Below, in pieces: positions 16,399-64,000 of a stretch of 64,000 nucleotides of DNA. This DNA comes from Siphonodentalium dalli (lineage: Eukaryota > Mollusca > Scaphopoda > Gadilida > Siphonodentaliidae), in contig CP136066.1 of NCBI GenBank assembly GCA_032622095.1, forward strand, positions 41,305,835 through 41,369,834. The letters run 5' to 3'. How positions within the stretch are numbered: position 1 is the stretch's first letter; every line of letters starts with the position of its first letter. The translations under genes were made by a program, and so were the position numbers. The notes beneath the pieces were generated by a model that did no database searches, was not told the origin of the DNA, and saw only the letters and a program-made list of their open reading frames with translations.

Positions 16399-16406
16399 TT
16401 AATCAT

Positions 16407-17137: not shown

Positions 17138-17141
17138 TTAA

Positions 17142-17510: not shown

Positions 17511-17531
17511 TTAATGGTATTTTCGTTCCAG

Positions 17532-17696
17532 CTAAGCTATAAAAGTCTCCGCTCCTCACGGATGTTCACTTCCGAGCAGTCACTTGAGCACGCGTCGGAC
17601 AGCTTAGGGCTATACAAAGGAATCCAAGTCTTCGTCAAAAAGACCAGCGTCACTGACTTCACCCTGGGCCGTGACGTATTGATGGACCTCAAAGCG
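17532..17696 (+). CDS. Guanylate cyclase exon 2: start of kinase homology domain
   Basis: This exon of 55 codons, phase 0 at both ends, begins LSYKSLRSSRMF and runs to LYKGIQVFVKKTSV and GRDVLMDLKA. It corresponds to the N-lobe of the receptor guanylate cyclase pseudokinase. VFVKK occupies the place of the VAIK lysine, and LMDLK the helix-C segment where a Glu is usual but Asp is found. No canonical glycine-rich loop is evident, as is common in this family. The domain binds ATP and transmits the signal to the cyclase; it is not expected to phosphorylate. The acceptor is TTCGTTCCAG at 17522-17531 and the donor GCG|GTAACG at 17697. The 3' end of a TTAA-flanked MITE lies only about 20 bp upstream of the acceptor. 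Confidence 0.9.
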
Positions 17697-19210: not shown

Positions 19211-19315
19211 ATGAAGGAAATGGCACATGAAAATCTGAATGCGTTTATTGGGGCTTCCGTTGACGTTCATGAAATCCGCACGCTATTCAAATATTGCAAG
19301 AAAGGAAGTCTTCAG
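19211..19315 (+). CDS. Guanylate cyclase exon 3: kinase homology domain, N-lobe
   Basis: This exon of 35 codons, phase 0 at both ends, reads MKEMAHENLNAFIGASVD, then IRTLFKYCKKGSLQ. The pattern H-x-N-L...F-I-G-A followed by an E/K-Y-C-x-x-G-S-L-Q hinge is diagnostic of the receptor guanylate cyclase pseudokinase and joins directly to the exon before (LMDLKA|MKEM). The acceptor follows CATCTTTCAG. The donor is CAG|GTTTGT at 19316, weaker than the donors that seeded arrays elsewhere in this gene. A 97-bp intronic duplication ends about 35 bp upstream of the exon. Confidence 0.9.
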
Positions 19316-21349: not shown

Positions 21350-21353
21350 TTAA

Positions 21354-21745
21354 CCCTTTACCCAACAAACCGGCCAAAACCGGCCAAATAAAGCTTCAAC
21401 AGCCTAAAATATCTTCGGTCTGTCTCAATAGAACCATACACATATGGATATCATTGGAACCGGCTCCTTGACCACATTGTGATAGTTACAGTTATGCCCT
21501 GTGCCAATGCATTCTCTTATATATGCGAGTCGACCATAGGTCGCCTCGCATATATAAGAGAATGCATTGGCCTAAAAAAAATCTTTTTTTGACACTTTTT
21601 ACCATTTTTTCTTACATTCTTTAACAATTTTATAATTTTTAATGTGTTAAGCCAATGCATTCTCTTATATATGCGAGGCGACCTATGGTCGACTCGCATA
21701 TATAAGAGAATGCATTGGCACAGGGCCCTTCTGTTGGGTAAAGGG
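21354..21745 (+). mobile_element. TTAA-type MITE with two hairpin modules, copy C (most complete)
   Basis: TTAA at 21350-21353 and 21746-21749. Ends CCCTTTACCCAACAAACCGG and TTCTGTTGGGTAAAGGG. Hairpin modules at about 21500-21571 and 21652-21724 are inverted to one another. Confidence 0.9.
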
Positions 21746-21795
21746 TTAAGTTGAGACAAAGAATAATAGCTTGGATGAGATTCCATGTTCCCAAA

Positions 21796-22169: not shown

Positions 22170-22241
22170 GATGTTCTTGAAAACGACAATATTCAGCTTG
22201 ATTGGATGTTCAAGTTCTCCTTCTTGTCCGATGTTGTACAG
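22170..22241 (+). CDS. Guanylate cyclase exon 4: kinase homology domain
   Basis: A short exon of 24 codons, phase 0 at both ends, reading DVLENDNIQLDWMFKFSF and LSDVVQ. The run S-L-Q|D-V-L-E-N-D...L-D-W-M-F across the junction with exon 3 is nearly invariant in receptor guanylate cyclases, so the call is firm despite the length. The acceptor is CTATTGCAG and the donor CAG|GTGAGTAG at 22242. A diverged copy of the donor region lies 148 bp downstream (TGTGCAG|GTGAGTAG at 22390), so a decoy donor of similar strength exists. Confidence 0.9.
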
Positions 22242-22450
22242 GTGAGTAGAGCAGGCTACCGCGTGTATTTGTAGTCCAGAATAGGGTTATAATTCATGGA
22301 ATATCTGGTAGCTGCAGATGAACAGAACACGTCAACACATACAATTGTAGTCCAGAATAGAGTTATTATTCTTGGCAGATCTTGTGCAGGTGAGTAGAAC
22401 GGGTTACCATGTGTACGTTTAGTCCAGAATATAGTTATCCATCTTGGCAG
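22228..22450 (+). repeat. Diverged repeat of the exon 4 donor region
   Basis: GTACAG|GTGAGTAGAGCAGG at 22242 recurs as GTGCAG|GTGAGTAGAACGGG at 22390. The downstream marker GTAGTCCAGAATAGGGTTA recurs at about 22271, 22347 and 22419, giving a ~74-bp unit with three partial copies. Confidence 0.8.
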
Positions 22451-22599
22451 ATATCATGCAGCTTGGAAAATGGCCATTGTGATACAAAGTTTTAATTTGT
22501 TCACACAGCGGAATCCATGAATTGAACACTTACAGTGCTGTTCCTTGCTTTACCATTCATACATACGACGTTTGAGCACGATAGAGAGGTTCCGCTTAC

Positions 22600-24691: not shown

Positions 24692-24851
24692 GGAATGGTT
24701 TATTTACATAACAGTCGTCTGAAGACGCACGGTCGACTGGCGAGTAATAATTGTGTGATTGATGGTCGCTGGGTTCTTAAACTGACCGATTACGGTTTGG
24801 CAAATTTTAAGTCGAATGGGACTGCATCGGACATCGGAAATATGGATAAAG
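24692..24851 (+). CDS. Guanylate cyclase exon 5: pseudokinase catalytic-loop region
   Basis: Phase 0 start, phase 1 end, 53 codons plus one base. It reads [31 protein letters not shown] and TDYGLANF. The catalytic-loop HRD of true kinases is replaced here by [10 protein letters not shown], which lacks the catalytic Asp, and DFG is DYG. Both are standard in receptor guanylate cyclases and mark a pseudokinase. The acceptor is TTTAATTACAG and the donor AAAG|GTATGC at 24852. A dispersed repeat, present in inverted orientation at 13.5 kb, ends about 40 bp upstream. Confidence 0.92.
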
Positions 24852-28193: not shown

Positions 28194-28346
28194 ATCTTAT
28201 ATGGACTTGCCCTGAGTTGTTGAGATTTGGTGATACTAGTTGCAGAGGAACACAGAAGGGCGATGTGTACAGCTTTGCAATCATAGCGCATGAAATATAC
28301 TTCCGAGATGGGGCGTTTACTACAGACGACGGACTCACGTCCAGTG
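28194..28346 (+). CDS. Guanylate cyclase exon 6: activation segment, C-lobe
   Basis: Phase 1 at both ends. It reads DLIWTCPELLRFGD (the D is completed from exon 5), then RGTQKGDVYSFAIIAHEIYF and DGLTSS. W-T-x-P-E-L-L, where CPE stands in place of the kinase APE motif, and G-D-V-Y-S-F-x-I-I are hallmarks of the family. The acceptor is a strong CTTTTCTCTGCAG and the donor CCAGTG|GTGAAT at 28347. The following intron is 14.5 kb and holds the 23-bp satellite, a large inverted-repeat element and the 25-bp array. Confidence 0.92.
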
Positions 28347-29136: not shown

Positions 29137-32100
29137 TCATCATCGTCACTATCAGCACCTTATCATAGTCACTATCAGCACCTTATCATCGTCACTATCA
29201 GCACCTTATCATCGTCACTATCAGCACCTTATCATCGTCACTATCAGCACCTTATCATCGTCACTATCAGCACCTTATCATCGTCACTATCAGCACCTTA
29301 TCATCGTCACTATCAGCACCTTATCATCGTCACTATCAGCACCTTATCATCGTCACTATCAGCACCTTATCATCGTCACTATCAGCACCTTATCATCGTC
29401 ACTATCAGCACCTTATCATCGTCACTATCAGCACCTTATCATCGTCACTATCAGCACCTTATCATCGTCACTATCAGCACCTTATCATCGTCACTATCAG
29501 CACCTTATCATCGTCACTATCAGCACCTTATCATCGTCACTATCAGCACCTTATCATCGTCACTATCAGCACCTTATCATCGTCACTATCAGCACCTTAT
29601 CATCGTCACTATCAGCACCTTATCATCGTCACTATCAGCACCTTATCATCGTCACTATCAGCACCTTATCATCGTCACTATCAGCACCTTATCATCGTCA
29701 CTATCAGCACCTTATCATCGTCACTATCAGCACCTTATCATCGTCACTATCAGCACCTTATCATCGTCACTATCAGCACCTTATCATCGTCACTATCAGC
29801 ACCTTATCATCGTCACTATCAGCACCTTATCATCGTCACTATCAGCACCTTATCATCGTCACTATCAGCACCTTATCATCGTCACTATCAGCACCTTATC
29901 ATCGTCACTATCAGCACCTTATCATCGTCACTATCAGCACCTTATCATCGTCACTATCAGCACCTTATCATCGTCACTATCAGCACCTTATCATCGTCAC
30001 TATCAGCACCTTATCATCGTCACTATCAGCACCTTATCATCGTCACTATCAGCACCTTATCATCGTCACTATCAGCACCTTATCATCGTCACTATCAGCA
30101 CCTTATCATCGTCACTATCAGCACCTTATCATCGTCACTATCAGCACCTTATCATCGTCACTATCAGCACCTTATCATCGTCACTATCAGCACCTTATCA
30201 TCGTCACTATCAGCACCTTATCATCGTCACTATCAGCACCTTATCATCGTCACTATCAGCACCTTATCATCGTCACTATCAGCACCTTATCATCGTCACT
30301 ATCAGCACCTTATCATCGTCACTATCAGCACCTTATCATCGTCACTATCAGCACCTTATCATCGTCACTATCAGCACCTTATCATCGTCACTATCAGCAC
30401 CTTATCATCGTCACTATCAGCACCTTATCATCGTCACTATCAGCACCTTATCATCGTCACTATCAGCACCTTATCATCGTCACTATCAGCACCTTATCAT
30501 CGTCACTATCAGCACCTTATCATCGTCACTATCAGCACCTTATCATCGTCACTATCAGCACCTTATCATCGTCACTATCAGCACCTTATCATCGTCACTA
30601 TCAGCACCTTATCATCGTCACTATCAGCACCTTATCATCGTCACTATCAGCACCTTATCATCGTCACTATCAGCACCTTATCATCGTCACTATCAGCACC
30701 TTATCATCGTCACTATCAGCACCTTATCATCGTCACTATCAGCACCTTATCATCGTCACTATCAGCACCTTATCATCGTCACTATCAGCACCTTATCATC
30801 GTCACTATCAGCACCTTATCATCGTCACTATCAGCACCTTATCATCGTCACTATCAGCACCTTATCATCGTCACTATCAGCACCTTATCATCGTCACTAT
30901 CAGCACCTTATCATCGTCACTATCAGCACCTTATCATCGTCACTATCAGCACCTTATCATCGTCACTATCAGCACCTTATCATCGTCACTATCAGCACCT
31001 TATCATCGTCACTATCAGCACCTTATCATCGTCACTATCAGCACCTTATCATCGTCACTATCAGCACCTTATCATCGTCACTATCAGCACCTTATCATCG
31101 TCACTATCAGCACCTTATCATCGTCACTATCAGCACCTTATCATCGTCACTATCAGCACCTTATCATCGTCACTATCAGCACCTTATCATCGTCACTATC
31201 AGCACCTTATCATCGTCACTATCAGCACCTTATCATCGTCACTATCAGCACCTTATCATCGTCACTATCAGCACCTTATCATCGTCACTATCAGCACCTT
31301 ATCATCGTCACTATCAGCACCTTATCATCGTCACTATCAGCACCTTATCATCGTCACTATCAGCACCTTATCATCGTCACTATCAGCACCTTATCATCGT
31401 CACTATCAGCACCTTATCATCGTCACTATCAGCACCTTATCATCGTCACTATCAGCACCTTATCATCGTCACTATCAGCACCTTATCATCGTCACTATCA
31501 GCACCTTATCATCGTCACTATCAGCACCTTATCATCGTCACTATCAGCACCTTATCATCGTCACTATCAGCACCTTATCATCGTCACTATCAGCACCTTA
31601 TCATCGTCACTATCAGCACCTTATCATCGTCACTATCAGCACCTTATCATCGTCACTATCAGCACCTTATCATCGTCACTATCAGCACCTTATCATCGTC
31701 ACTATCAGCACCTTATCATCGTCACTATCAGCACCTTATCATCGTCACTATCAGCACCTTATCATCGTCACTATCAGCACCTTATCATCGTCACTATCAG
31801 CACCTTATCATCGTCACTATCAGCACCTTATCATCGTCACTATCAGCACCTTATCATCGTCACTATCAGCACCTTATCATCGTCACTATCAGCACCTTAT
31901 CATCGTCACTATCAGCACCTTATCATCGTCACTATCAGCACCTTATCATCGTCACTATCAGCACCTTATCATCGTCACTATCAGCACCTTATCATCGTCA
32001 CTATCAGCACCTTATCATCGTCACTATCAGCACCTTATCATCGTCACTATCAGCACCTTATCATCGTCACTATCAGCACCTTATCATCGTCACTATCAGC

Positions 32101-32944
32101 ACCTTATCATCGTCACTATCAGCACCTTATCATCGTCACTATCAGCACCTTATCATCGTCACTATCAGCACCTTATCATCGTCACTATCAGCACCTTATT
32201 ATCGTCACTATCAGCACTTTATCATCGTCACTATCAGCACCTTATCATCGTCACTATCAGCACCTTATTATCGTCACTATCAGCACATTATCATCGTCAC
32301 TATCAGAACCTTATCATCGTCACTATCAGCACCTTATCATCGTCACTATCAGCACCTTATCATCGTCACTATCAGCACCTTATCATCGTCACTATCAGCA
32401 CCTTATCATCGTCACTATCAGCACCTTATCATCGTCACTATCAGCACCTTATCATCGTCACTATCAGCACCTTATCATCGTCACTATCAGCACCTTATCA
32501 TCGTCACTATCAGCACCTTATCATCGTCACTATCAGCACCTTATCATCGTCACTATCAGCACCTTATCATCGTCACTATCAGCACCTTATCATCGTCACT
32601 ATCAGCACCTTATCATCGTCACTATCAGCACCTTATCATCGTCACTATCAGCACCTTATCATCGTCACTATCAGCACCTTATCATCGTCACTATCAGCAC
32701 CTTATCATCGTCACTATCAGCACCTTATCATCGTCACTATCAGCACCTTATCATCGTCACTATCAGCACCTTATCATCGTCACTATCAGCACCTTATCAT
32801 CGTCACTATCAGCACCTTATCATCGTCACTATCAGCACCTTATCATCGTCACTATCAGCACCTTATCATCGTCACTATCAGCACCTTATCATCGTCACTA
32901 TCAGCACCTTATCATCGTCACTATCAGCACCTTATCATCGTCCT
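29137..32944. repeat. 3.8 kb satellite, 23-bp unit, nearly perfect, ~165 copies
   Basis: The unit is TTATCATCGTCACTATCAGC plus ACC. Only the first unit (ATCATAGTC) and a cluster at 32199-32310 carry changes that I noticed; the rest look identical. No frame of the unit has a stop, so a 1277-codon open frame (29123-32956) arises with a 23-residue period. It is not a gene. Such uniformity beside strongly diverged arrays indicates recent expansion or active homogenisation. Confidence 0.97.
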
Positions 32945-37620: not shown

Positions 37621-37709
37621 ATAGTTTGTCCCTATGCGCTTGCTTGTCGCGACTGATATATGCATGGAGTTGACTAATTGCATTAGATACATTAAAAAGA
37701 AACATTTAA

Positions 37710-38066
37710 CCCTTTACCCAACAGAACGCCCAGAAACGCCCTAACAGCCTAAATTATCTTCGGTCTGTCTCAATAAAACCATGGAAATATGGGTATCATT
37801 GGAACCGGCTCATTGAGCACATTGTGATAGTTACAGTTATGCCCTGTGCCAATGCATTCTCTTATATATGCGAGTCGACCATAGGTCGCCTCGCATATAT
37901 AAGAGAATGCATTGGCCTAAAAAAAACTTTTTTTTAACACTTTTTACCATTTTTTCTTTAATATGTGTTAAGCCAATGCATTCTCTTATATATGCGAGGC
38001 GACCTATGGTCGACTCGCATATATAAGAGAATGCATTGGCACAGGGCCGTTCTGTTGGGTAAAGGG
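37710..38066 (+). mobile_element. TTAA-type MITE with two hairpin modules, copy D
   Basis: TTAA at 37706-37709 and 38067-38070. Ends CCCTTTACCCAACAGAACGC and CCGTTCTGTTGGGTAAAGGG. Both internal hairpins are intact. Confidence 0.9.
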
Positions 38067-38162
38067 TTAAATAGGACATGCACATACGGTATGAGATATG
38101 TTTTGTAAGACCAGAGACTCCCGCATTATATTTCATTTATTTACAACCTTGTAACCTTGTAA

Positions 38163-42852: not shown

Positions 42853-43033
42853 AAATAACCAACAAAGTGCGGTCTGAAAAGATCGACCCACCTTTCCGCC
42901 CAACTGTAGCCACCGCCTATGATGTACCTCCACGTATGTTGGGCTTACTTTGTGATTGTTGGGCTGAAAATCCCGGTGAACGACCAACATTCGAAGACAT
43001 CAGAAAGTACATCAAGAAACACAACACAGATCA
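42853..43033 (+). CDS. Guanylate cyclase exon 7: end of kinase homology domain
   Basis: Phase 1 start, phase 2 end. It reads EITNKVRSEKIDPPFRPTV, then MLGLLCDCWAENPGERPTFE and DIRKYIKKHN. The E-I-x-x-K-V...P-F-R-P and C-W-A-E-x-P-x-E-R-P motifs close the pseudokinase C-lobe. The acceptor is TATCCATTGTAG, and the phase-1 G of exon 6 completes GAA for the first Glu. The donor is ATCA|GTAAGTG at 43034. A dispersed repeat also found near 6.1 kb ends about 55 bp upstream. Confidence 0.92.
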
Positions 43034-45850: not shown

Positions 45851-46106
45851 CTTTTGTCAGACAGGGAGGCGACAGGGATATAATGAATTTATTCGATCTT
45901 ATCTTTAATCTGTTTGTCAGACAGGGATGAATCATGGATATAATTACCTTATTCGATGTGTTCTTTAGTCTGTGACTGTCAAACAGGGAGGGATTATGGA
46001 TATAACGACCTTATTCGATGGTATCTTTATTATGTTTCTGTCAGAAAGGGAGGTATAAATGATATAATGAACTAATTTGATATTATCTTTACTCTGTTTC
46101 TGTCAG
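45851..46106 (+). repeat. Tandem copies of the exon 8 acceptor, 60-66 bp unit
   Basis: Five copies (the last is the real acceptor) of TGTTTCTGTCAG|AAAGGGAGG and then GATATAATG with a TTATTCGATNTTATCTTTA-type filler. Copies of the TCAG end at 45860, 45920, a mutated one near 45982, then 46044 and 46106. Each carries ~25 bp of the exon's 5' end. Confidence 0.85.
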
Positions 46107-46247
46107 AAAGGGAGGTATAATGGATATAATGGTGCAGAAGTTAGAGAAGTACGCCAGTAACCTTGAAGATATCGTGGCACAGAGGACAATGGAACTTACA
46201 GATGAGAAGAGAAAGACTGATAATCTGCTCAATCGAATGCTACCACC
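46107..46247 (+). CDS. Guanylate cyclase exon 8: coiled-coil dimerisation linker
   Basis: 141 bp, phase 2 at both ends. It reads KGGIMDIMVQKLEKYASNLE, DIVAQRTMELTDEKRKTDN and LLNRMLPP. This is the linker helix between pseudokinase and cyclase domain of receptor guanylate cyclases, ending at the M-L-P-P/R that opens the cyclase domain. It mediates dimerisation and signal transfer. Both edges have been tandemly copied into the introns: the acceptor and first ~25 bp recur upstream at 60-66 bp spacing (five copies counting the real one), and the donor and last ~10 bp found the 47-bp array downstream. The donor is ACC|GTAAGTAT at 46248. Reading into the intron meets TAA at once. Confidence 0.94.
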
Positions 46248-46456
46248 GTAAGTATAATATTCAATAATGAAGCCGATATCCCAGTGCTTGTGAGAGAGAG
46301 ATTCTGACTACTAGATTTCCTATGTATGCTATATTAACGTATAAATAAGTGACAATACAAGGTAACTTGAACACCTTCCGTTGTGTGTGAGTACTGTTCA
46401 ATTGTCAGTTTGAGTATCATATACTGAGTACAAAGTGCGGCTAGTATATCATTGTA
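46248..46456. other. Founder unit and unique spacer
   Basis: The intron opens with GTAAGTATAATATTCAATAA then TGAAGCCGATATCCCAGTGC, the sequence of which the 47-bp array is made. About 165 bp of unique sequence separates it from the array proper. Confidence 0.8.
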
Positions 46457-49400
46457 TAATATTCAATAATGCAGCCGACATCCCAACACTAGCACCGTAA
46501 GTATAATACTCAATAATGCAGCTGACATCCCAATGCTAGCACCGTAAGTATAATATTCAAAAATGAGTCTGACTTTGTAGGGCTAGCACCGTAAGTATAA
46601 TATTCAATAATGCAGCCGACATTCCAATGATAGCACCGTAAGTATATTATTCAATAATGAATCCGACATCCCAATGCTACCACTGTAAGCATAATATTCA
46701 ATAATGAAGCCAACATCCTAATGCTAGCGCTGTAAGTATAATATTCAATAATGAAGCTGACATCACAATACTAGGGCCATAAGTATATTATTCAATAATG
46801 ATGCCAACATCCCAATGCTAGCGACGTCAGTATAATATTCAATAATGAAGCCGACATCACAGTACTAGGGCCATAAGTATATTATTCAATAATTAAGCCA
46901 ACAAATCAATGCTAGCGCCGTAAGTATCATATTCAATAATAAAGCCGACATCACAATACTAGCGCCATAAGTATAATATTCAATAATGAAGCCGATATCG
47001 CAATACTAGCGCCATTAGTATAATATTCAATAATGAAGCCGACATCACAATACTAGCACCATAAGTATATTATTCAATAATGCAGCCAACATCCCAATGC
47101 TAGCGCCATAAGTAAAATATTCAATAATGAAGCCGATATCCCAACGCTAGCACTGTAAGTATAATATTCAATAATGAAGCCGATATCCCAACGCTAGCAC
47201 CGTAAGTATAATATTCAATAATGCAGCCGTCATCCCAACACTAGCACCGTAAGTTTAATATTCAATAATGAAGCCGATATCCCAACGCTAGCACCGTAAG
47301 TATAATATTCAATAATGAAGCCGATATCCCAACCCTGGCACCGTAAGTATAATACTCAATAATGCAGCCGACATCCCAACACTAGCACCGTAAGTATAAT
47401 ATTCAATAATGAAGCCGATATCCCAACGCTAGCACCGTAAGTATAATATTCAATAATGAAGCCGATATCCCAACACTGGCACCGTAAGTATAATACTCAA
47501 TAATGCAGCCGACATCCCAACACTAGCACCGTAAGTATAATATTGAATAATGAAGCCGATATCCCGACACTAGCACCGTAAGTATAATATTAAATAATGC
47601 AGCCAACATCCCAACACTGGCACCGTGAGTATAATATTCAATAATGCAGCCGACATCCCAACACTGGCACCGTAAGTATGATATTAAATAATGCAGCCGA
47701 CATCCCAACACTAGCACCGTAAGTATAATATTAAATAATGCAACCGACATCCCAACACTGGCACCGTAAGAATAATATTCAATAATGCAGCCGACATCCC
47801 AACACTGGCACCGTATGTATAATATTCAATAATGCAGCGGACATCCCAACACTGGCACCGTAAGTATAATATTCAATAATGCAGCCGACATCCCAACACT
47901 GGCACCGTAAGTATAATATTAAATAATGCAGCCGACATCCCAACACTGGCACCGTAAGTATAATATTCAATAATGCAGCTGACATCCCAACACTGGCACC
48001 GTAAGTATAATATTCAATAATGCAGCCGACATCCCAACACTAGCACCGTAAGTATAATATTAAATAATGCAGCCGACATTCCAACACTGGCACCGTAAGT
48101 ATAATATTCAATAATACAGCCGACATCCCAACACTGGCACCGTAAGTATAATATTCAATAATGCAGCCGTCATCCGAACACTGGCACCCTAAGTATAATA
48201 TTCAATAATGAAGCGACATCCCAACACTGGCACCGTTGGTATAATATTCAATAATGCAGCGACATCCCAACACTACCACCCTAAGTATAATATTCAATAA
48301 TGCAGCCAACTTCCGAATTCTAGCACGGTAAGTATACTATTCAATAATGAAACCGATATCCCAACACTATCGCCATAAGTATAATATTCAATAATACAGC
48401 CGACATCCCAACACTGGCACCGTAAGTATAATATTCAATAATGCAGCCGACATCCGAACACTGGCACCCTAAGTATAATATTCAATAATGAAGCGACATC
48501 CCAACACTGGCACCGTTGGTATAATATTCAATAATGCACCGACATCCCAACACTACCACCCTAAGTATAATATTCAATAATGCAGCCAACTTCCGAATTC
48601 TAGCACGGTAAGTATACTATTCAATAATGAAACCGATATCCCAACACTATCGCCGTAAGTATAATATTCAATAATGCAGCTGACATTCCAATGATAGCAC
48701 CGTAAGTATATTATTCAATAATGAATCCGACATCCCAATGCTACCACTGTAAGCATAATATTCAATAATGAAGCCAACATCCCAATGCTAGCGCTGTAAG
48801 CATAATATTCAATAATGAAGCCAACATCCTAATGCTAGCGCTGTAAGTATAATATTCAATAATGAAGCTGACATCACAATACTAGGGCCATAAGTATATT
48901 ATTCAATAATGATGCCAACATCCCAATGCTAGCGACGTCAGTATAATATTCAATAATGAAGCCGACATCACAGTACTAGGGCCATAAGTATATTATTCAA
49001 TAATTAAGCCAACAAATCAATGCTAGCGCCGTAAGTATCATATTCAATAATAAAGCCGACATCACAATACTAGCGCCATAAGTATAATATTCAATAATGA
49101 AGCCGATATCGCAATACTAGCGCCATTAGTATAATATTCAATAATGAAGCCGACATCACAATACTAGCACCATAAGTATATTATTCAATAATGCAGCCAA
49201 CATCCCAATGCTAGCGCCATAAGTAAAATATTCAATAATGAAGCCGATATCCCAACGCTAGCACTGTAAGTATAATATTCAATAATGAAGCCGATATCCC
49301 AACGCTAGCACCGTAAGTATAATATTCAATAATGCAGCCGTCATCCCAACACTAGCACCGTAAGTTTAATATTCAATAATGAAGCCGATATCCCAACGCT

Positions 49401-50972
49401 AGCACCGTAAGTATAATATTCAATAATGAAGCCGATATCCCAACCCTGGCACCGTAAGTATAATACTCAATAATGCAGCCGACATCCCAACACTAGCACC
49501 GTAAGTATAATATTCAATAATGAAGCCGATATCCCAACGCTAGCACCGTAAGTATAATATTCAATAATGAAGCCGATATCCCAACACTGGCACCGTAAGT
49601 ATAATACTCAATAATGCAGCCGACATCCCAACACTAGCACCGTAAGTATAATATTGAATAATGAAGCCGATATCCCGACACTAGCACCGTAAGTATAATA
49701 TTAAATAATGCAGCCAACATCCCAACACTGGCACCGTGAGTATAATATTCAATAATGCAGCCGACATCCCAACACTGGCACCGTAAGTATGATATTAAAT
49801 AATGCAGCCGACATCCCAACACTAGCACCGTAAGTATAATATTAAATAATGCAACCGACATCCCAACACTGGCACCGTAAGAATAATATTCAATAATGCA
49901 GCCGACATCCCAACACTGGCACCGTATGTATAATATTCAATAATGCAGCGGACATCCCAACACTGGCACCGTAAGTATAATATTCAATAATGCAGCCGAC
50001 ATCCCAACACTGGCACCGTAAGTATAATATTAAATAATGCAGCCGACATCCCAACACTGGCACCGTAAGTATAATATTCAATAATGCAGCTGACATCCCA
50101 ACACTGGCACCGTAAGTATAATATTCAATAATGCAGCCGACATCCCAACACTAGCACCGTAAGTATAATATTAAATAAAGCAGCCGACATTCCAACACTG
50201 GCACCGTAAGTATAATATTCAATAATACAGCCGACATCCCAACACTGGCACCGTAAGTATAATATTCAATAATGCAGCCGACATCCGAACACTGGCACCC
50301 TAAGTATAATATTCAATAATGAAGCGACATCCCAACACTGGCACCGTTGGTATAATATTCAATAATGCAGCGACATCCCAACACTACCACCCTAAGTATA
50401 ATATTCAATAATGCAGCCAACTTCCGAATTCTAGCACGGTAAGTATACTATTCAATAATGAAACCGATATCCCAACACTATCGCCATAAGTATAATATTC
50501 AATAATACAGCCGACATCCCAACACTGGCACCGTAAGTATAATATTCAATAATGCAGCCGACATCCGAACACTGGCACCCTAAGTATAATATTCAATAAT
50601 GAAGCGACATCCCAACACTGGCACCGTTGGTATAATATTCAATAATGCACCGACATCCCAACACTACCACCCTAAGTATAATATTCAATAATGCAGCCAA
50701 CTTCCGAATTCTAGCACGGTAAGTATACTATTCAATAATGAAACCGATATCCCAACACTATCGCCGTAAGTATAATATTCAATAATGCAGCTGACATTCC
50801 AATGATAGCACCGTAAGTATATTATTCAATAATGAATCCGACATCCCAATGCTACCACTGTAAGCATAATATTCAATAATGAAGCCAACATCCCAATGCT
50901 AGCGCTGTAAGTATAATATTCAATAATGAAGCTGACATCACAATACTAGGGCCATAAGTATATTATTCAATA

Positions 50973-51518
50973 ATGATAATAATAATAATAATAATAATAT
51001 TTATATAGCGCCTATCCCCCGCAAGGGGCCCTAAGCGCTTTACACATTATATAAATACACAAGAAATGAACATGGAAAATAATCAATAGATATGTGGAAT
51101 TATATATAATCAGATTTTGTTAGTTTTCTTTGTGTCGGGGTAGCGTCGTCGGAATATGTGAGTTTTTAAAGCAGATCGAAAATCGGTTAGCAAGCAAGAT
51201 TGTCGCATTTCATTTGGTAGAGAGTTCCAAATGTCGGGACAGGCTACAGAGAAAGCTCTGTCGCCGACGGTCAAAAGATTTGCACCTTGAGGGCAGAGAA
51301 GGGACGATTCACCAGAACGAAGTGTTCGCCGGGGAGTGTATGGATATATCAGACTGTTAATATATTCGGGATTCAGAGACAAACATCCGACGGAAACCAA
51401 ATGTTGCTATTTTGAATTGTATCTGATCTTTGATAGGTAGCCAGTGAAGGTCGGCGTGCATGGTTGTTACGCTACAGCCTTTCCTTCTTCGGAGTACAAT
51501 TCTGGCGGCGGTGTCCAA
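50973..51518 (-). mobile_element. 5'-truncated LINE, copy 1, inside the array
   Basis: On the minus strand it ends GCGCTATATAAATATTATTA with (ATT)n, the CR1/L2-type 3' tail, preceded by TGTGTAAAGCGCTTAGGGCC. The coding part is the C-terminus of the reverse transcriptase polyprotein. Duplicated with the array at 53428-53973. Confidence 0.88.
51110..51400 (-). pseudogene. LINE reverse transcriptase C-terminus, broken copy
   Basis: A 96-codon frame ending LTVGDRAFSVACPDIWNSLP then NEMRQSCLLTDFRSALKTHI. G-D-R-A-F-S-V-A-x-P-x-x-W-N-S-L-P...F-x-S-A-L-K-T-H is the standard C-terminal end of CR1/L2-group non-LTR retrotransposon polyproteins. Compared with the second copy it lacks 5 bp in the stretch before PEYINSLIYPY, so the frame upstream is shifted. 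The copy keeps the natural C-terminus (FRRRYPDTKK). It is 5'-truncated and cannot encode an active enzyme. Confidence 0.85.
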
Positions 51519-53427
51519 CATCCCAATGCTAGCGCCGTCAGTATAATATTCAATAATGAAGCCGACATCACAATACTAGGGCCATAAGTATATTATTCAA
51601 TAATTAAGCCAACATCCCAATGTTAGCGCTGTAAGTATCATATTCAATAATGAAGCCGACATCACAATACTAGCGCCATAAGTACAATATTCAATAATGA
51701 AGCCGATATCACAATACTAGCGCCATTAGTATAATATTCAATAATGAAGCCGACATCACAATACTAGCACCATAAGTATATTATTCAATAATGCAGCCAA
51801 CATCCCAATGCTAGCGCCATAAGTAAAATATTCAATAATGAAGCCAACATCACAATACTAGCGCCATTAGTATAATATTCAATAATGAAGCCGATATCCC
51901 AACGCTAGCACTGTAAGTATAATATTCAATAATGAAGCCGATATCCCAACGCTAGCACCGTAAGTATAATATTCAATAATGCAGCCGACATCCCAACACT
52001 AGCACCGTAAGTTTAATATTCAATAATGAAGCCGATATTCCAACGCTAGCACCGTAAGTATAATATTCAATTTGAAGCCGATATCCCAACGCTAGCACCG
52101 TAAGTATAATATTCAATATTGAAGCCGATATCCCAACACTGGCACCGTAAGTATACTACTCAATAATACAGCCGACATCCCAACACTAGCACCGTAAGTA
52201 TAATATTGATTAATGAAGCCGATATCCCGACACTAGCACCGTAAGTATAATATTAAATAATGCAGCCAACATCCCAACACTGGCACCGTGAGTATAATAT
52301 TCAATAATGCAGCCGATATCCCGACACTAGCACTGTAAGTATAATATTCAATAATGAAGCCGACATCACAATACTAGCACCATAAGTATATATTCAATAA
52401 TGCAGCCAACATCACAATACTAGCGCCATTAGTATAATATTCAATAATGAAGCCGATATCCCAACGCTAGCACTGTAAGTATAATATTCAATAATGAAGC
52501 CGATATCCCAACACTGGCACCGTAAGTATAATATTCAATAATGCAGCTGACATCCCAACACTGGCACCGTAAGTATAATATTCAATAATGCAGCCGACAT
52601 CCCAACACTAGCACCGTAAGTATAATATTAAATAATGCAGCCGACATTCCAACACTGGCACCGTAAGTATAATATTCAATAATACAGCCGACATCCCAAC
52701 ACTGGCACCGTAAGTATAATATTCAATAATGCAGCCGACATCCGAACACTGGCACCCTAAGTATAATATTCAATAATGTAGCGACATCCCAACACTGGCA
52801 CCGTTGGTATAATATTCAATAATGCAGCGACATCCCAACACTACCACCCTAAGTATAATATTCAATAATGCAGCCAACTTCCGAATTCTAGCACGGTAAG
52901 TATACTATTCACTAATGAAACCGATATCCCAACACTATCGCCATAAGTATAATATTCAATAATACAGCCGACATCCCAACACTGGCACCGTAAGTATAAT
53001 ATTCAATAATGCAGCCGACATCCGAACACTGGCACCCTAAGTATAATATTCAATAATGAAGCGACATCCCAACACTGGCACCGTTGGTATAATATTCAAT
53101 AATGCACCGACATCCCAACACTACCACCCTAAGTATAATATTCAATAATGCAGCCAACTTCCGAATTCTAGCACGGTAAGTATACTATTCAATAATGAAA
53201 CCGATATCCCAACACTATCGCCGTAAGTATAATATTCAATAATGCAGCTGACATTCCAATGATAGCACCGTAAGTATATTATTCAATAATGAATCCGACA
53301 TCCCAATGCTACCACTGTAAGCATAATATTCAATAATGAAGCCAACATCCCAATGCTAGCGCTGTAAGTATAATATTCAATAATGAAGCTGACATCACAA
53401 TACTAGGGCCATAAGTATATTATTCAA

Positions 53428-53973
53428 TAATGATAATAATAATAATAATAATAATATTTATATAGCGCCTATCCCCCGCAAGGGGCCCTAAGCGCTTTAC
53501 ACATTATATAAATACACAAGAAATGAACATGGAAAATAATCAATAGATATGTGGAATTATATATAATCAGATTTTGTTAGTTTTCTTTGTGTCGGGGTAG
53601 CGTTGTCGGAATATGTGAGTTTTTAAAGCAGATCGAAAATCGGTTAGCAACAAGATTGTCGCATTTCATTTGGTAGAGAGTTCCAAATGTCGGGACAGGC
53701 TACAGAGAAAGCTCTGTCGCCGACGGTCAAAAGATTTGCACCTTGAGGGCAGAGAAGGGACGATTCACCAGAACGAAGTGTTCGCCGGGGAGTGTATGGA
53801 TATATCAGACTGTTAATATATTCGGGAAGGGATTCAGAGACAAACATCCGACGGAAACCAAATGTTGCTATTTTGAATTGTATCTGATCTTTGATAGGTA
53901 GCCAGTGAAGGTCGGCGTGCATGGTTCTTACGCTACAGCCTTTCCTTCTTCGGAGTACAATTCTGGCGGCGGT
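53428..53973 (-). mobile_element. 5'-truncated LINE, copy 2 (duplicated with the array)
   Basis: About 99% the same as copy 1 and with the same junctions to the 47-bp units (TAATGATAATAATAAT on one side, GTGTCCAACATCCC on the other). It therefore arose by block duplication, not by a second insertion. Confidence 0.9.
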
Positions 53974-53982
53974 GTCCAACAT
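53644..53982 (-). pseudogene. LINE reverse transcriptase C-terminus, copy 2
   Basis: A 112-codon frame: LDTAARIVLRRRKGCSVRTM, HADLHWLPIKDQIQFKIATF, then PEYINSLIYPYTPRRTLRSG and GDRAFSVACPDIWNSLPNEM. A-A-R-I-V...D-L-H-W-L-P-I...I-Q-F-K-I is the thumb/connector region of CR1/L2-group reverse transcriptases. A 1-base difference from copy 1 near 53650 (GGTTAGCAACAAG against GGTTAGCAAGCAAG, 2 bp shorter) changes the C-terminal frame. The first Met is encoded partly by the array junction, so it is not a real start. Confidence 0.85.
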
Positions 53983-56900
53983 CCCAATGCTAGCGCCGTC
54001 AGTATAATATTCAATAATGAAGCCGACATCACAATACTAGGGCCATAAGTATATTATTCAATAATTAAGCCAACATCCCAATGTTAGCGCCGTAAGTATC
54101 ATATTCAATAATGAAGCCGACATCACAATACTAGCGCCATAAGTACAATATTCAATAATGAAGCCGATATCACAATAATAGCGCCATTAGTATAATATTC
54201 AATAATGAAGCCGACATCACAATACTAGCACCATAAGTATATTATTCAATAATGCAGCCAACATCCCAATGGTAGCGCCATAAGTAAAATATTCAATAAT
54301 GAAGCCAACATCACAATACTAGCGCCATTATTATAATATTCAATAATGAAGCCGATATCCCAACGCTAGCACTGTAAGTATAATATTCAATAATGAAGCC
54401 GATATCCCAACGTTAGCACCGTAAGTATAATATTCAATAATGCAGCCGACATCCCTACACTAGCACCGTAAGTTTAATATTCAATAATGAAGCCGATATC
54501 CCAACGCTAGCACCGTAAGTATAATATTCAATATTGAAGCCGATATCCCAACACTGGCACCGTAAGTATACTACTCAATAATGCAGCCGACATCCCAACA
54601 CTAGCACCGTAAGTATAATATTGATTAATGAAGCCGATATCCCGACACTAGCACCGTAAGTATAATATTAAATAATGCAGCCAACATCCCAACACTGGCA
54701 CCGTGAGTATAATATTCAATAATGCAGCCGATATCCCGACACTAGCACTGTAAGTATAATATTCAATAATGAAGCCGACATCACAATACTAGCACCATAA
54801 GTATATATTCAATAATGCAGCCAACATCACAATACTAGCGCCATTAGTATAATATTCAATAATGAAGCCGATATCCCAACGCTAGCACTGTAAGTATAAT
54901 ATTCAATAATGAAGCCGATATCCCAACGCTAGCACCGTAAATATAATATTCAATAATGCAGCCGACATCCCAACACTAGCACCGAAAGTTTAATATTCAA
55001 TAATGAAGCCGATATCCCAACGCTAGCACCGTAAGTATAATATTCAATAATGAAGCCGATATCCCAACGCTAGCACCGTAAGTATAATATTCAATATTGA
55101 AGCCGATATCCCAACACTGGCACCGTAAGTATATTACTCAATAATGCAGCCGACATCCCAACACTAGCACCGTAAGTATAATATTGATTAATGAAGCCGA
55201 TATCCCGACACTAGCACCGTAAGTATAATATTAAATAATGCAGCCAACATCCCAACACTGGCACCGTGAGTATAATATTCAATAATGCAGCCGACATCCC
55301 AACACTGGCACCGTAAGTATGATATTAAATAATGCAACCGACATCCCAACACTGGCACCGTAAGAATAATATTCAATAATGCAGCCGACATCCCAACACT
55401 GGCAACGTAAGTATAATATTCAATAATGCAGCGGACATCCCAACACTAGGACCATAAGTATAATATTAAATAATGCAGCCGACATCCCAACACTGGCACC
55501 GTAAGTATAATATTCAATAATGGAGCCGACATCCCAACACTGGCACCGTAAGTATAATATTAAATAATGCAGCCGACATCCCAACACTGGCACCGTAAGT
55601 ATAATATTCAATAATGCAGCTGACATCCCAACACTGGCACCGTAAGTATAATATTCAATAATGCAGCCGACATCCCAACACTAGCACCGTAAGTATAATA
55701 TTAAATAATGCAGCCGACATTCCAACACTGGCACCATAAGTATAATATTCAATAATACAGCCGACATCCCAATACTGGCACTGTAAGTATAATATTCAAT
55801 AATGCAGCCGACATCCGAACACTGGCACCCTAAGTATAATATTCAATAATGAAGCGACATCCCAACACTGGCACCGTTGGTATAATAGTCAATAATGCAC
55901 CGACATCCCAACACTACCACCCTAAGTATAATATTCAATAATGCAGCCAACTTCCGAATTCTAGCACGGTAAGTATACTATTCAATAATGAAACCGATAT
56001 CCCAACACTATCGCCGTAAGTATAATATTCAATAATGATGCCAACATCCCAATGCTAGCGCCGTAAGTATAATATTCAATAATGAAGCCGACATCACAAT
56101 ACTAGGGCCATAAGTATATTATTCAATAATGAAGCCAACATCCCATTGCTCGCGCCGTAAGTATAATATTCAGTAATGAAGCCGACATCACAATACTAGT
56201 GCCATTAGTATAATATTCAATAATGAAGCCGACATCACAATACTAGCACCATAAGTATATATTCAATAATGCAGCCAACATCCCAATGCTAGCGCCATAG
56301 GTATAATATTCAATAATGAAGCTGACATCACAATACTAGCGCCATAATTATAATATTCAATAATGAAGCCGATATCACAATACTAGTGCCATTAGTATAA
56401 TATTCAATAATGAAGCCGACATCACAATACTAGCACCATAAGTATATATTCAATAATGCAGCCAACATCCCAATGCTAGCGCCATAGGTATAATATTCAA
56501 TAATGAAGCTGACATCACAATACTAGCGCCATAAGTATAATATTCAATAATGAAGCCGATATCCCAACGCTAGCACTGTAAGTATAATATTCAATAATGA
56601 AGCAGATAGCCCAATGCTAGCACCGTAAGTATAATATTCAATAATGCCAACGACATCCCAACACAGGCACCGTAAGTATAATATTCAATAATGTAGCTGA
56701 CACCCCAACACTGGCACCATAAGTATAATATTCAATAATGCAGCCGACATCCCAACACTAGCACTGTAAGTATAATATTAAATAATGCAGCCGACAATCC
56801 AACACTGGCACCATAAGTAAAATATTCAATAATACAGCCGACATCCCAACACTGGCACCGTAAGTATAATATTCAATAATGCAGCCGACAACCCAACACT

Positions 56901-59900
56901 GGCACCGTAAGTATAATATTCAATAATGCAGTCGACATCCGAACACTGGCACCCTAAGTATAATATTCAATAATGAAGCTGATATCCCAACACTGGCACA
57001 GTTGGTATAATATTCAATAATGCACCGACATCCCAACACTACCACCCTAAGTATAATATTCAATAATGAAACCGATATCCCAACACTATCGCTGTAAGTA
57101 TAATATTCAATAATGATGCCAACATCCCAGTGCTAGCGCCGTAAGTATAATATTCAATAATGAAGCCGACATCACAATACTAGGGCCATAAGTATATTAT
57201 TCAATAATGAAGCCAACATCCCATTGCTAGCGCCGTAAGTATAATATTCAGTAATGAAGCCGACATCACAATACTAGTGCCATAAGTATAATATTCAATA
57301 ATGAAGCCGATATCACAATACTAGTGCCATTAGTATAATATTCAATAATGAAGCCGACATCACAATACTAGCACCATAAGTATATATTCAATAATGCAGC
57401 CGATATCCCAACGCTAGCACTGTAAGTATAATATTCAATAATGAAGCAGATATCCCAATGCTAGCACCGTAAGTATAATATTCAATAATGCCGACGACAT
57501 CCCAACATTAGCACCGTAAGTTTAATATTCAATAATGAAGCTGATATCCCAATGCTAGCACCGTAAGTATAATATTCAATAATGAAGCCGATATCCCAAA
57601 ACTGGCACCATAAGTATAATACTCAATAATGAAGCCGACATCCCAACACTAGCACCGTAAGTATATATTGAATAATGAAGCCGATATCCCAACGCTAGCA
57701 CCGTAAGTATAATATTCAATAATGAAGCCGATATCCCAACACTGGCACCGTAAGTATAATACTCAATAATGCAGCCGACATCCCAACACTAGCACCGTAA
57801 GTATAATATTAAATAATGCAGCCAACATCCCAACACTGGCCCCGTAAGTATAATATTAAATAATTCAGCCGACATCCGAACACTGGCACCGTAAGTATAA
57901 TATTCAATAATGCAGCCGACATCCCAACACTGGCACCGTAAGTATAATATTCAAAAATGCAGCCGACATCCCAACACTAGCACCGTAAGTATAATAATAA
58001 ATAATGCAGCCGACATCCCAACACTGGCACCGTAAGTATAATATTCAATAATGCAGCCGACATTCCAACACTGGCACCGTAAGTATAATATTCAATAATA
58101 CAGCCGACATCCCAACACTGGCACCGTAAGTATAATATTCAATAATGCAGCCGACATCCCAACACTGGCACCGTAAGTATAATATTCAATAATGCTGCCG
58201 ACATCCGAACACTGGCACCGTAAGTGTAATATTCAATAATGGAGCCGACGTCCCAACACTGGCACCGTAAGTATAATATTCAATAATGTACCGACATCCC
58301 AACACTACCACCCTAAGTATAATATTCAATAATGAAGCCGATATCCCAACGCTAGCACCGTAAGTATAATATTCAATATTGAAGCCGATATCCCAACACT
58401 GGCACCGTAAGTATATTACTCAATAATGCAGCCGACATCCCAACACTAGCACCGTAAGTATAATATTGATTAATGAAGCCGATATCCCGACACTAGCACC
58501 GTAAGTATAATATTAAATAATGCAGCCAACATCCCAACACTGGCACCGTGAGTATAATATTCAATAATGCAGCCGACATCCCAACACTGGCACCGTAAGT
58601 ATGATATTAAATAATGCAACCGACATCCCAACACTGGCACCGTAAGAATAATATTCAATAATGCAGCCGACATCCCAACACTGGCAACGTAAGTATAATA
58701 TTCAATAATGCAGCGGACATCCCAACACTAGGACCATAAGTATAATATTAAATAATGCAGCCGACATCCCAACACTGGCACCGTAAGTATAATATTCAAT
58801 AATGGAGCCGACATCCCAACACTGGCACCGTAAGTATAATATTAAATAATGCAGCCGACATCCCAACACTGGTACCGTAAGTATAATATTCAATAATGCA
58901 GCTGACATCCCAACACTGGCACCGTAAGTATAATATTCAATAATGCAGCCGACATCCCAACACTAGCACCGTAAGTATAATATTAAATAATGCAGCCGAC
59001 ATTCCAACACTGGCACCATAAGTATAATATTCAATAATACAGCCGACATCCCAATACTGGCACTGTAAGTATAATATTCAATAATGCAGCCGACATCCGA
59101 ACACTGGCACCCTAAGTATAATATTCAATAATGAAGCGACATCCCAACACTGGCACCGTTGGTATAATAGTCAATAATGCACCGACATCCCAACACTACC
59201 ACCCTAAGTATAATATTCAATAATGCAGCCAACTTCCGAATTCTAGCACGGTAAGTATACTATTCAATAATGAAACCGATATCCCAACACTATCGCCGTA
59301 AGTATAATATTCAATAATGATGCCAACATCCCAATGCTAGCGCCGTAAGTATAATATTCAATAATGAAGCCGACATCACAATACTAGGGCCATAAGTATA
59401 TTATTCAATAATGAAGCCAACATCCCATTGCTAGCGCCGTAAGTATAATATTCAGTAATGAAGCCGACATCACAATACTAGTGCCATTAGTATAATATTC
59501 AATAATGAAGCCGACATCACAATACTAGCACCATAAGTATATATTCAATAATGCAGCCAACATCCCAATGCTAGCGCCATAGGTATAATATTCAATAATG
59601 AAGCTGACATCACAATACTAGCGCCATAATTATAATATTCAATAATGAAGCCGATATCACAATACTAGTGCCATTAGTATAATATTCAATAATGAAGCCG
59701 ACATCACAATACTAGCACCATAAGTATATATTCAATAATGCAGCCAACATCCCAATGCTAGCGCCATAGGTATAATATTCAATAATGAAGCTGACATCAC
59801 AATACTAGCGCCATAAGTATAATATTCAATAATGAAGCCGATATCCCAACGCTAGCACTGTAAGTATAATATTCAATAATGAAGCAGATAGCCCAATGCT

Positions 59901-62545
59901 AGCACCGTAAGTATAATATTCAATAATGCCAACGACATCCCAACACAGGCACCGTAAGTATAATATTCAATAATGTAGCTGACACCCCAACACTGGCACC
60001 ATAAGTATAATATTCAATAATGCAGCCGACATCCCAACACTAGCACTGTAAGTATAATATTAAATAATGCAGCCGACAATCCAACACTGGCACCATAAGT
60101 AAAATATTCAATAATACAGCCGACATCCCAACACTGGCACCGTAAGTATAATATTCAATAATGCAGCCGACAACCCAACACTGGCACCGTAAGTATAATA
60201 TTCAATAATGCAGTCGACATCCGAACACTGGCACCCTAAGTATAATATTCAATAATGAAGCTGATATCCCAACACTGGCACAGTTGGTATAATATTCAAT
60301 AATGCACCGACATCCCAACACTACCACCCTAAGTATAATATTCAATAATGAAACCGATATCCCAACACTATCGCTGTAAGTATAATATTCAATAATGATG
60401 CCAACATCCCAGTGCTAGCGCCGTAAGTATAATATTCAATAATGAAGCCGACATCACAATACTAGGGCCATAAGTATATTATTCAATAATGAAGCCAACA
60501 TCCCATTGCTAGCGCCGTAAGTATAATATTCAGTAATGAAGCCGACATCACAATACTAGTGCCATAAGTATAATATTCAATAATGAAGCCGATATCACAA
60601 TACTAGTGCCATTAGTATAATATTCAATAATGAAGCCGACATCACAATACTAGCACCATAAGTATATATTCAATAATGCAGCCGATATCCCAACGCTAGC
60701 ACTGTAAGTATAATATTCAATAATGAAGCAGATATCCCAATGCTAGCACCGTAAGTATAATATTCAATAATGCCGACGACATCCCAACATTAGCACCGTA
60801 AGTTTAATATTCAATAATGAAGCTGATATCCCAATGCTAGCACCGTAAGTATAATATTCAATAATGAAGCCGATATCCCAAAACTGGCACCATAAGTATA
60901 ATACTCAATAATGAAGCCGACATCCCAACACTAGCACCGTAAGTATATATTGAATAATGAAGCCGATATCCCAACGCTAGCACCGTAAGTATAATATTCA
61001 ATAATGAAGCCGATATCCCAACACTGGCACCGTAAGTATAATACTCAATAATGCAGCCGACATCCCAACACTAGCACCGTAAGTATAATATTAAATAATG
61101 CAGCCAACATCCCAACACTGGCCCCGTAAGTATAATATTAAATAATTCAGCCGACATCCGAACACTGGCACCGTAAGTATAATATTCAATAATGCAGCCG
61201 ACATCCCAACACTGGCACCGTAAGTATAATATTCAAAAATGCAGCCGACATCCCAACACTAGCACCGTAAGTATAATAATAAATAATGCAGCCGACATCC
61301 CAACACTGGCACCGTAAGTATAATATTCAATAATGCAGCCGACATTCCAACACTGGCACCGTAAGTATAATATTCAATAATACAGCCGACATCCCAACAC
61401 TGGCACCGTAAGTATAATATTCAATAATGCAGCCGACATCCCAACACTGGCACCGTAAGTATAATATTCAATAATGCTGCCGACATCCGAACACTGGCAC
61501 CGTAAGTGTAATATTCAATAATGGAGCCGACGTCCCAACACTGGCACCGTAAGTATAATATTCAATAATGTACCGACATCCCAACACTACCACCCTAAGT
61601 ATAATATTCAATAATGCAGCCGACATCCGAATGCAATCACCGTAAGTATAATATTCAATAATGAAGCCGATATCCCAACACTACCACCGTAAGTATAATA
61701 TTCAATAACGCAGCCGACATCCCAACACTAGCACCGTAAATATAATACTCAATAATGCAGCTGACATCCCAATGCTAGCACCATAAGTATAATATTCAAA
61801 AATGATTCTGACATCGTAGGGCTAGCTCCGTAAGTATAATATTCAATAATGCAGCCGACATTCCAATGATAGCACCGTAAGTATAATATTCAATAATGAA
61901 TCCGAAATCCCAATGCTACCACTGTAAGCATAATATTCAATAATGAAGCCAACATCCCAATGCTAGCACCGTAAGTATAATATTCAATAATGAAGCCGAC
62001 GTCACAATACTAGCGCCATAAGTATATTATTCAATAATGAAGCCAACATCCCAATGCTAGCGCCATAAGTATAATATTCAATAATGAAGCCAACATCCCA
62101 ATGCTAGCACCATAAGTATAATATTCAATAATGAAGCCGACGTCACAATACTAGCGCCATAAGTATATTATTCAATAATGAAGCCAACATCCCAATGCTA
62201 GCGCCATAAGTATAATATTCAATAATGAAGCCGACATCACAATACTAGCGCCATAAGTATATTATTCAATAATGAAGCCAACATCCCAATGCTAGCGCCG
62301 TATGTATAATATTCAACCACTCTAAGAATAATATTCAATAATGAAGCTGACATCACAATACAATACTAAATATAATATTCAATAATGAAGCTGACATCAC
62401 AATACAATATTAAATATAATATTCAATAATGAAGCTGACATCACAATACAATACTAAATATAATATTCAATAATGATGATGTCAAATAAAATTCTACCAG
62501 CGCAAGTCTGTTATGAATATGGGTATTGGACAATTGCGATGCAGC

Positions 62546-62876: not shown

Positions 62877-62901
62877 GTCAGCCCAGCTGTAGTTGGATAT
62901 A

Positions 62902-63159
62902 CAGTAATGCTCTAAGTAATCGACTTCTTAACCACAGCAGAATTATGGGTACTTTTCAGGATTTAGTCGGAAATATGGCTTGTTGCCATTCATCGGAAAG
63001 CTCTCGGATTTAGTCGAAAATATGGCTTGTTGCTATTCATTGGAAAGCTCTCGGTGAGAGCTTTCCGATGAATGGCAACAAGCCATATTTCCTCCTAATC
63101 CTGAAAAGTTACCGATAATTATGCTGTGGTTAAGAAGTCGATTAATTAGGGCATTACTG
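62902..63159. mobile_element. Hairpin MITE, Tc1/mariner-like ends, copy 3 (long)
   Basis: Left CAGTAATGCTCTAAGTAATC, right GATTAATTAGGGCATTACTG. TA at 62900-62901 but TG after the right end. It contains a duplicated inner block (GGATTTAGTCGGAAATATGG / GGATTTAGTCGAAAATATGG), making it longer than copy 1. Starts 25 bp after the exon 9 donor. Confidence 0.88.
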
Positions 63160-64000
63160 TGGCACCAGGGACAAATCCTGATAATTTTTGGGGTGGGTCA
63201 CAAGTTTTCCGGATGAGAATGTCCCATGTAATTTGAGATGACACAATTGTTCTGATAAAACATTTGATATGTAACTAAAGACCCAATTGCAACCTCAGAT
63301 TTACCATTTACACTATGTATTGTTAATTTGTTTAATTTTGCCTTAAAAGTTTAAAATTCAGTTGATAAAAAAATTGTTTTCTAAGAATTCGGGGACATTT
63401 GGGCTACTAGAGTTTGGGCACCAAAACCTGTAACAGGTATCTAAACAGCCCTGGATATTCCCTGAGTACCAAGAACCAATTATTGGTTGTGTTCGTGATT
63501 GTTCAGTCATGTTTCTAACAGTGGATTAGCACCACGGTTGCTATCATCGCTGCTATGTTTTATAGTCCGAGAGCTGAGACACTATTTCACGATATTTAGG
63601 TAACAATTTTTATTGGTAGTTATTGAATCGATGCGAACCAGCTAATCAGAAAACCTATTTCTCAATATTGGAAGTATCTGCCTTTGTCTGCGAATTACAT
63701 AGTTCATGTTTTTTAAAAAGTGTATTATTTAACAAATATCGAAAAATCAATTTTTGCTATTATTTCTAGAAATAATAACCAAATAGGTATGTTTAATGCA
63801 CATAATTAGTGTAGCAACATAAATCAAGCAAGTGTTTGTCAAGATTTTAAGGAATACGCGAGAACTGTAACATTTCATGACGACATTGGGCAAAAGATAT
63901 TTGTCGATTGAACAAACATATCCGCTTACCATGTCTTTAGCGGAACGTTATCAATGCCAGGTTTTTGATTTGCTCATAGAAAACTGCAGCACATACATGC
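63160..64000. other. Intronic, no gene seen
   Basis: Presumed intron after exon 9. AT-rich, no further cyclase exon recognised before the window ends. Confidence 0.5.

Follow-up and report, generated by a model that had tools for sequence, protein, structure and literature searches.

How is the 5' splice site of an exon chosen when several hundred copies of that site lie in the intron behind it, and where do such copies come from? The 64,000-nucleotide stretch of Siphonodentalium dalli DNA analysed here (the window; contig CP136066.1 of assembly GCA_032622095.1, forward-strand positions 41,305,835 to 41,369,834) raises this question in a receptor guanylate cyclase gene, one intron of which is filled by a 47-bp donor array. 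Donor choice among many equal sites is a basic problem of the spliceosome, of which such arrays are a natural test. A sequence-only reading of the window had offered three options for the array: neutrality, sequestration of U1, or prevention of premature polyadenylation within a long AT-rich intron (telescripting). We find that neutrality fits best. With a probability of roughly 0.85 we are dealing with a giant 'mirage' minisatellite, a kind of repeat described from amphioxus, which expanded neutrally and is tolerated by exon definition.

The host gene is an NPR-type receptor guanylate cyclase with eight exons on the plus strand of the window; their phases agree, and spliced together they give a single open frame of 390 codons. 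Exons C1 (46107-46247, KGGIMDIM...LLNRMLPP) and C2 (62684-62876, start of the catalytic domain) together match ANP receptor 1 in a phmmer search (E 3.1e-35), and C2 matches PF00211 (E 8.8e-15). C1 is in frame with its neighbours, and C2, being in frame and phase with C1, is the next exon and its expected splice partner. The junction at the 3' end of C1 reads ...ATGCTACCACC/GTAAGTATAATATTC, the slash marking the splice site. As had been claimed, the array fills the intron between these two exons; without the array this intron would measure 413 bp. Wraparound alignment resolves the array (46454-62476, plus strand) into 342 units of 47 bp, and Tandem Repeats Finder (TRF) reports 337 copies at 46454-62316 plus a 44-bp derivative at 62328-62476. 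Mean unit identity is 89% to the consensus and 82% to the founder described below. GT is intact in 220/342 units and the full GTAAGTAT is kept in 173/342, so that the 'roughly 300' copies of the earlier estimate were an overstatement. Two AAT microsatellites within the array (50969-50999 and 53426-53456, 2457 bp apart) probably belong to a repeated block.

There is strong support for a derivation of the array from the 5' splice site of the exon itself. A 70-base segment across the junction scores 93 against the array, compared with a maximum of 38 among its shuffles (n=60). The founder (46238-46284, plus strand) comprises the last 10 bases of the exon, whose end encodes the cyclase residues MLPP, and the first 37 bases of the intron, with the real donor CC/GTAAGTAT at 46247/46248. 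The sequence-only reading was right that the unit unites an exon end with an intron start, but its exonic part of 10 bases was too short: the base preceding TGCT is A in 323/342 units, as in the exon, and not G as at the founder's intron end, so that the copied exon portion amounts to 12 bases (AATGCTACCACC, one difference from the consensus). The two TGCT motifs that had been proposed as the site of slippage, at 46238-46241 and 46285-46288, do lie 47 bp apart. As a complete account, slippage between them was rejected, since in both the window gene and a duplicate of it (see below) a spacer parts the founder from the array. This spacer (46285-46453, plus strand) begins with the second TGCT, and its remaining 165 bp (46289-46453) do not resemble the unit, scoring 16 where the shuffled mean is 16.9. 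Degenerate units within the spacer were discarded on this score, as was a recurrence of the spacer after the array (score 24; shuffled maximum 29).

By the sequence-only reading, this origin would be refuted if the unit turned up as an unrelated satellite elsewhere in the genome (2.23 Gb, 9 contigs) in the absence of the exon; a search for it brought no such refutation. The exact unit 18-mer GTATAATATTCAATAATG has 163 forward and 11 reverse matches, the former all in the window and the latter all in the gene duplicate; therefore no exact copy of the unit exists elsewhere. This bears on the alternative that an unrelated satellite invaded the gene and overwrote the end of the exon, with which the sheer excess of array units over the single founder would agree. 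However, the exon end is coding, GT is found at the homologous phase-2 position in 18/20 loci with a C1-type exon (20 being a lower bound for such loci), and a second giant array on contig C8 differs from the 47-bp array and matches its own version of the junction. Because the donor position is shared by 18/20 loci and the unit is confined to the window and the duplicate, the coding sequence represents the ancestral state, from which the array is derived, and the probability of an invasion is close to nil.

The duplicate lies inverted on the same contig (G000:C6:41408001-41488000), about 87 kb off from C1 to C1. None of the eight exons is missing from it; they are 93-99% identical to those of the window gene, without an indel in the coding sequence. 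Founder, spacer and an array of acceptor copies in front of C1 are the same in it, and it also carries the copy at exon K3 (both described below). Its donor array consists of 17 + 15 units at the two ends (about 32), to which the two ends of the window array correspond closely. Although 79 'units' were scored in the intron, only these end units were counted; the founder and isolated matches, mostly inside an 11.2-kb insertion that splits the array, were excluded. The insertion has terminal inverted repeats of 1.28 kb (92.7%), which give it the look of a large mobile element of the inverted-repeat type. It, rather than the array, makes up most of the 14.8-kb C1-C2 intron of the duplicate. Since edges, founder and spacer are common to both copies, the array is older than the gene duplication, and most likely the window array, with 342 units against about 32, grew around tenfold afterwards. 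The divergence of the two genes (dS, synonymous, 0.117; dN, nonsynonymous, 0.018) gives a dN/dS of 0.15 (bootstrap 0.07-0.28; 390 codons), and an early loss of function in one copy would be expected to bring it nearer 0.5 or more. Because of this constraint the two genes appear to be functional, as do their mRNAs in consequence, and both mRNAs are presumably spliced correctly. The differences are unevenly distributed, with 1/141 bases in C1 and 3/193 in C2 compared to 10/165 in K1 and 12/181 in K6; gene conversion or stronger constraint are possible reasons for the low values in C1 and C2.

Within the window array, the neighbouring blocks 55068-58302 and 58350-61584 differ at 2/3235 positions and the blocks 46722-48785 and 48833-50896 at 2/2064. 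Such near-identity favours recent growth by blocks, or is partly an assembly artefact. That the length as a whole was inflated by assembly error, through repeated haplotype blocks, could be suspected from neighbours of 3.2 kb and 2.1 kb that are 99.9% identical. A comparable array of 16.4 kb at the other locus, and a duplicate in which founder, spacer and the units at either end recur, make this very unlikely; for the same reasons the existence of the array is not in doubt, even should its length be inexact.

According to the explanation that we favour, a short tandem duplication would have copied the exon-intron boundary of the cyclase gene, and the copies would have multiplied inside the intron, partly by duplication of whole blocks. 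Splicing could ignore them if exon definition pairs the exon's own acceptor with the strong donor closest to it, as the decoys are situated further downstream, a search among them yielded no good acceptor, and a transcript spliced at a decoy would run into a stop codon. Splicing errors would then produce no altered full-length protein, for which reason the array would be effectively neutral and free to grow. Read-through of the donor indeed yields MLPP followed immediately by a stop, the TAA having been recognised before, and all four copied acceptors in front of C1 open into a stop as well. By a rule of our own, the window array contains no pyrimidine-rich YAG (0, simulated mean 6), and AGGTAAGT is present in 0 copies; exons or recursive splice sites inside the array are therefore unlikely, and recursive sites were dropped as a candidate on the absence of AGGTAAGT.

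Alternatively, the donor array could be functional, its field of U1 sites strengthening the recognition of the exon or slowing and regulating splicing, and so acting as a switch between the full receptor and one truncated after MLPP. Retention of GTAAGTAT in about half of the units (173/342) would suit such a function, as would the position of the read-through stop ahead of the catalytic domain and the 158 GT sites of the array whose pairing with U1 equals that of the real donor in duplexfold (simulated mean 6). The C8 array described below would suit it too, with GTGAGT in 423/533 units at the homologous junction of a second cyclase gene and donor columns that are less variable than the rest. 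The duplexfold scan is permissive, as it also reports 241 minus-strand sites in the C8 array, and exact motif counts are preferred. Conservation of the copied donors in the window tells against a function: the eight donor columns and the other intron-derived columns have the same variability (0.094 each), and the donor stretch ranks only 15th among the least variable of 47 eight-column stretches. The +1 G is one of the most variable columns, being non-G in 32% of units; its loss is often a change of CG to CA, which resembles the decay of unselected methylated CpG. GT-intact decoys are also no rarer near the exon (13/20 first units, 220/342 overall). Sequestration of U1, the second option of the sequence-only reading, is not supported by unconserved donor columns and undepleted near decoys. 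Furthermore, the duplicate, whose array ends comprise only about 32 units, is still constrained, and 14/18 donors testable at this position have no junction-crossing copy within the approximately 1.5 kb searched. Altogether we consider a function of the array unlikely.

Telescripting, by which U1 sites would keep polyadenylation from occurring too early in a long AT-rich intron, is circular as an explanation, because the intron without the array is only 413 bp long and offers little to protect; it was rejected for this reason. This remainder contains one AATAAA. In the array itself ATTAAA occurs 30 times, about twice the simulated mean of 16, which speaks for such a role, whereas AATAAA is well below simulation (5 versus 34). 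The sense strand of the C8 array has 0 of four polyadenylation hexamers, and the length of the 14.8-kb intron of the duplicate is owed mainly to its insertion. We hold a telescripting role to be highly improbable, and U1 capture and telescripting are both unsupported.

A second giant array was found on contig C8 in a cyclase gene that is 74% identical to the window gene over the C1-type exon. Its 533 units of 31 bp span 16,446 bp and start directly at the exon, CCCACC/GTGAGTACGA. Each unit combines about 20 exonic with about 10 intronic bases. Because both this register and the intron part are unlike those of the 47-bp unit, the C8 array was probably born independently. An exact 22-mer of its unit has 108 matches on one strand, and all places among the matches listed are in the C8 array. 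The array ends at its 3' side with GTGAGTACGACTCGAGTATG, which would be the continuation of the old intron, and a homologue of exon C2 follows about 3 kb further on. GT is kept in 436/533 units and GTGAGT in 423/533.

Several observations weigh against neutral expansion, or against parts of our account of it. The donor columns of the C8 array are less variable than the rest (0.033 versus 0.064, a difference that is unranked against other eight-column stretches), the only result here that points to constraint, and giant donor arrays at one homologous junction in two genes may be more than chance. It could be argued that the giant arrays behind MLPP arose independently because they are functional, with hundreds of nearly perfect decoys that recruit U1 or slow splicing shortly ahead of the catalytic domain and thereby set the ratio of full receptor to a cyclase-less one that ends at the stop. 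We regard this as distinctly unlikely; despite two giants at the homologous junction, no enrichment is seen in the junction counts given below. Instead of the window array growing, that of the duplicate may have shrunk, although this is less likely. Finally, our account gives no reason for the spacer that parts the founder from the array. Neutral expansion nevertheless accounts best for the window array as a whole.

The phenomenon is not limited to the donor of C1. The sequence-only reading let its region begin with the exon at 46107, which is correct for the exon but misses an acceptor mirage of the same nature that overlaps the exon start (45855-46131, plus strand; score 84, shuffled maximum 34). 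Its four 62-bp copies, three with AG and one with AA, contain the pyrimidine tract, the acceptor and the first 22-25 or so exon bases and precede the real acceptor at 46106/46107, so that C1 is the source of both arrays flanking it. The donor of exon K3 has likewise been duplicated, the exon end TTCTTGTCCGATGTTGTACAG/GTGAGTAG being copied downstream in a 72-bp donor mirage (22221-22452, plus strand; score 78, shuffled maximum 29). In total 3/16 junctions of the window gene are duplicated and the other 13 have no junction-crossing copy. The K1 acceptor exceeds its shuffles (36 versus 30); as this match involves intron sequence alone, it was left out of the count.

Among 18 other cyclase loci, 2/16 testable donors and 0/18 acceptors are duplicated; one of the two donors is that of the C8 array, and on contig C5 a cyclase donor is duplicated once. 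Local duplication outside the window gene and its duplicate thus affects 2/34 cyclase junctions (L023-L040), close to the background of 43/702 control points in their flanks, and an excess of mirages at exon junctions was accordingly rejected. The control hits are uneven, 18 and 12 of the 43 coming from L023 and L037. Cut-offs differ slightly between junction and control tests, but the two real hits clear either cut-off. A rule was used to guess some of the acceptor positions, including those of L038 and L039, where the donor position lacks GT, and the borderline L030 donor, with a score of 37 equal to the shuffled maximum, was not counted. At L037 (G000:C1:96707066-96707203 and flanks) an intronic tandem repeat precedes the cyclase acceptor (score 52) and stops short of the exon. 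Myosin exons gave a similar picture, with donor-side duplication in 1/10, acceptor-side duplication in 0/10 and 39/646 control points, in a non-random sample of 10/85 matches that were hand-picked from different places, with seven on contigs C3 and C4. These counts come from a test of exon pieces and from reading one locus at which a first test had responded to a repeat beyond the exon. At L051 (G000:C4:288890850-288892350) the end of a myosin exon, ..GACCTCATTGAAAAG/GTAGG, is followed closely by a single copy of itself, which by its letters is a mirage in an unrelated gene. The junction copies look like the genome's general local duplication where it reaches the edges of exons.

The remaining exons of the host gene in the window, all on the plus strand, are K1 (17532-17696), K2 (19211-19315), K3 (22170-22241), K4 (24692-24851), K5 (28194-28346) and K6 (42853-43033), which by resemblance we take to be the kinase-homology domain. 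Tandem repeats occupy about 48% of the window (TRF rows summed by hand). The K5-K6 intron holds a 23-bp array at 29139-32942 (165 copies, 99% match) that is far more uniform than the 47-bp array. Two adjoining arrays at 14928-15868 show, by eye, a donor-like GCC/GTGAGTGAA and TAG/GTAAGTGGG per consensus unit on the minus strand; they are possibly mirages of a gene on the opposite strand, of which no exon was identified. An element of about 400 bp recurs several times in both orientations (16020-16402, 17138-17519, 21350-21749 and 37706-38070); it apparently has palindromic ends and resembles miniature inverted-repeat transposable elements. Behind C2 lies an inverted repeat (62899-63160) with an internal 47-bp duplication (62959-63054), and similar pieces occur at 7145-7326 and inside the insertion of the duplicate. 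Scans of the window with Rfam at gathering thresholds and for tRNAs gave no match.

The kind of repeat is already known, and the window array has the defining anatomy of mirage minisatellites. As in the amphioxus clusters, its unit crosses the exon-intron boundary of the host gene, the true exon stands at the edge of the cluster with the repeats in the intron (here behind a 165-bp spacer, on C8 without one), and many but not all copies keep GT (window 220/342; C8 436/533). In contrast to the amphioxus mirages, there are 342 and 533 copies over 16 kb each, both junctions of one exon are affected and the giants occupy the homologous junction of two related genes. The genomes differ too, the present one having 2.23 Gb in 9 contigs and that of amphioxus about 0.5 Gb. 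The amphioxus reports describe repeat clusters that straddle exon-intron boundaries, those of donors as well as acceptors, with normal splicing and unstable copy number, in Adh3, TnC, the globins BflGb6/BflGb9 and PGBD5 (PMC3087553, PMC3902484); units measure 10-72 bp in Adh3, and BflGb6 has 3 or 6 of them (PMC3087553). Human segmental-duplication genes are reported to contain internal tandem repeats at exon-intron boundaries (mean 30-bp unit, four times) that have been linked to new introns or alternative splicing (PMC2812944); the location at boundaries is the same here. For potato RNA-dependent RNA polymerase, intron gain by tandem genomic duplication is reported (PMC4974935), whereas here no new intron is evident and an existing one was lengthened.

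In the literature, which we covered in part, no report of arrays this large was found, which is weak evidence of novelty. New are an acceptor mirage on C1 and a donor mirage on the upstream exon K3 of the same gene, a duplicate that shares the array edges at about 32 units, with a most likely tenfold later growth of the window array, and coding sequences of the duplicates that are constrained at a dN/dS of 0.15. The 16.4-kb donor mirage at the homologous junction of the related cyclase on C8, which is probably independent, is new as well. In the duplicate pair, about 32 copies stand against 342 with exons that are otherwise similar, and the experiment of adding several hundred copies of a true donor has seemingly been run twice, in two related genes. 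The arrays also show that mirages can grow to 16 kb and take up almost an entire intron. Together with the amphioxus reports, this suggests that mirage repeats occur beyond amphioxus.

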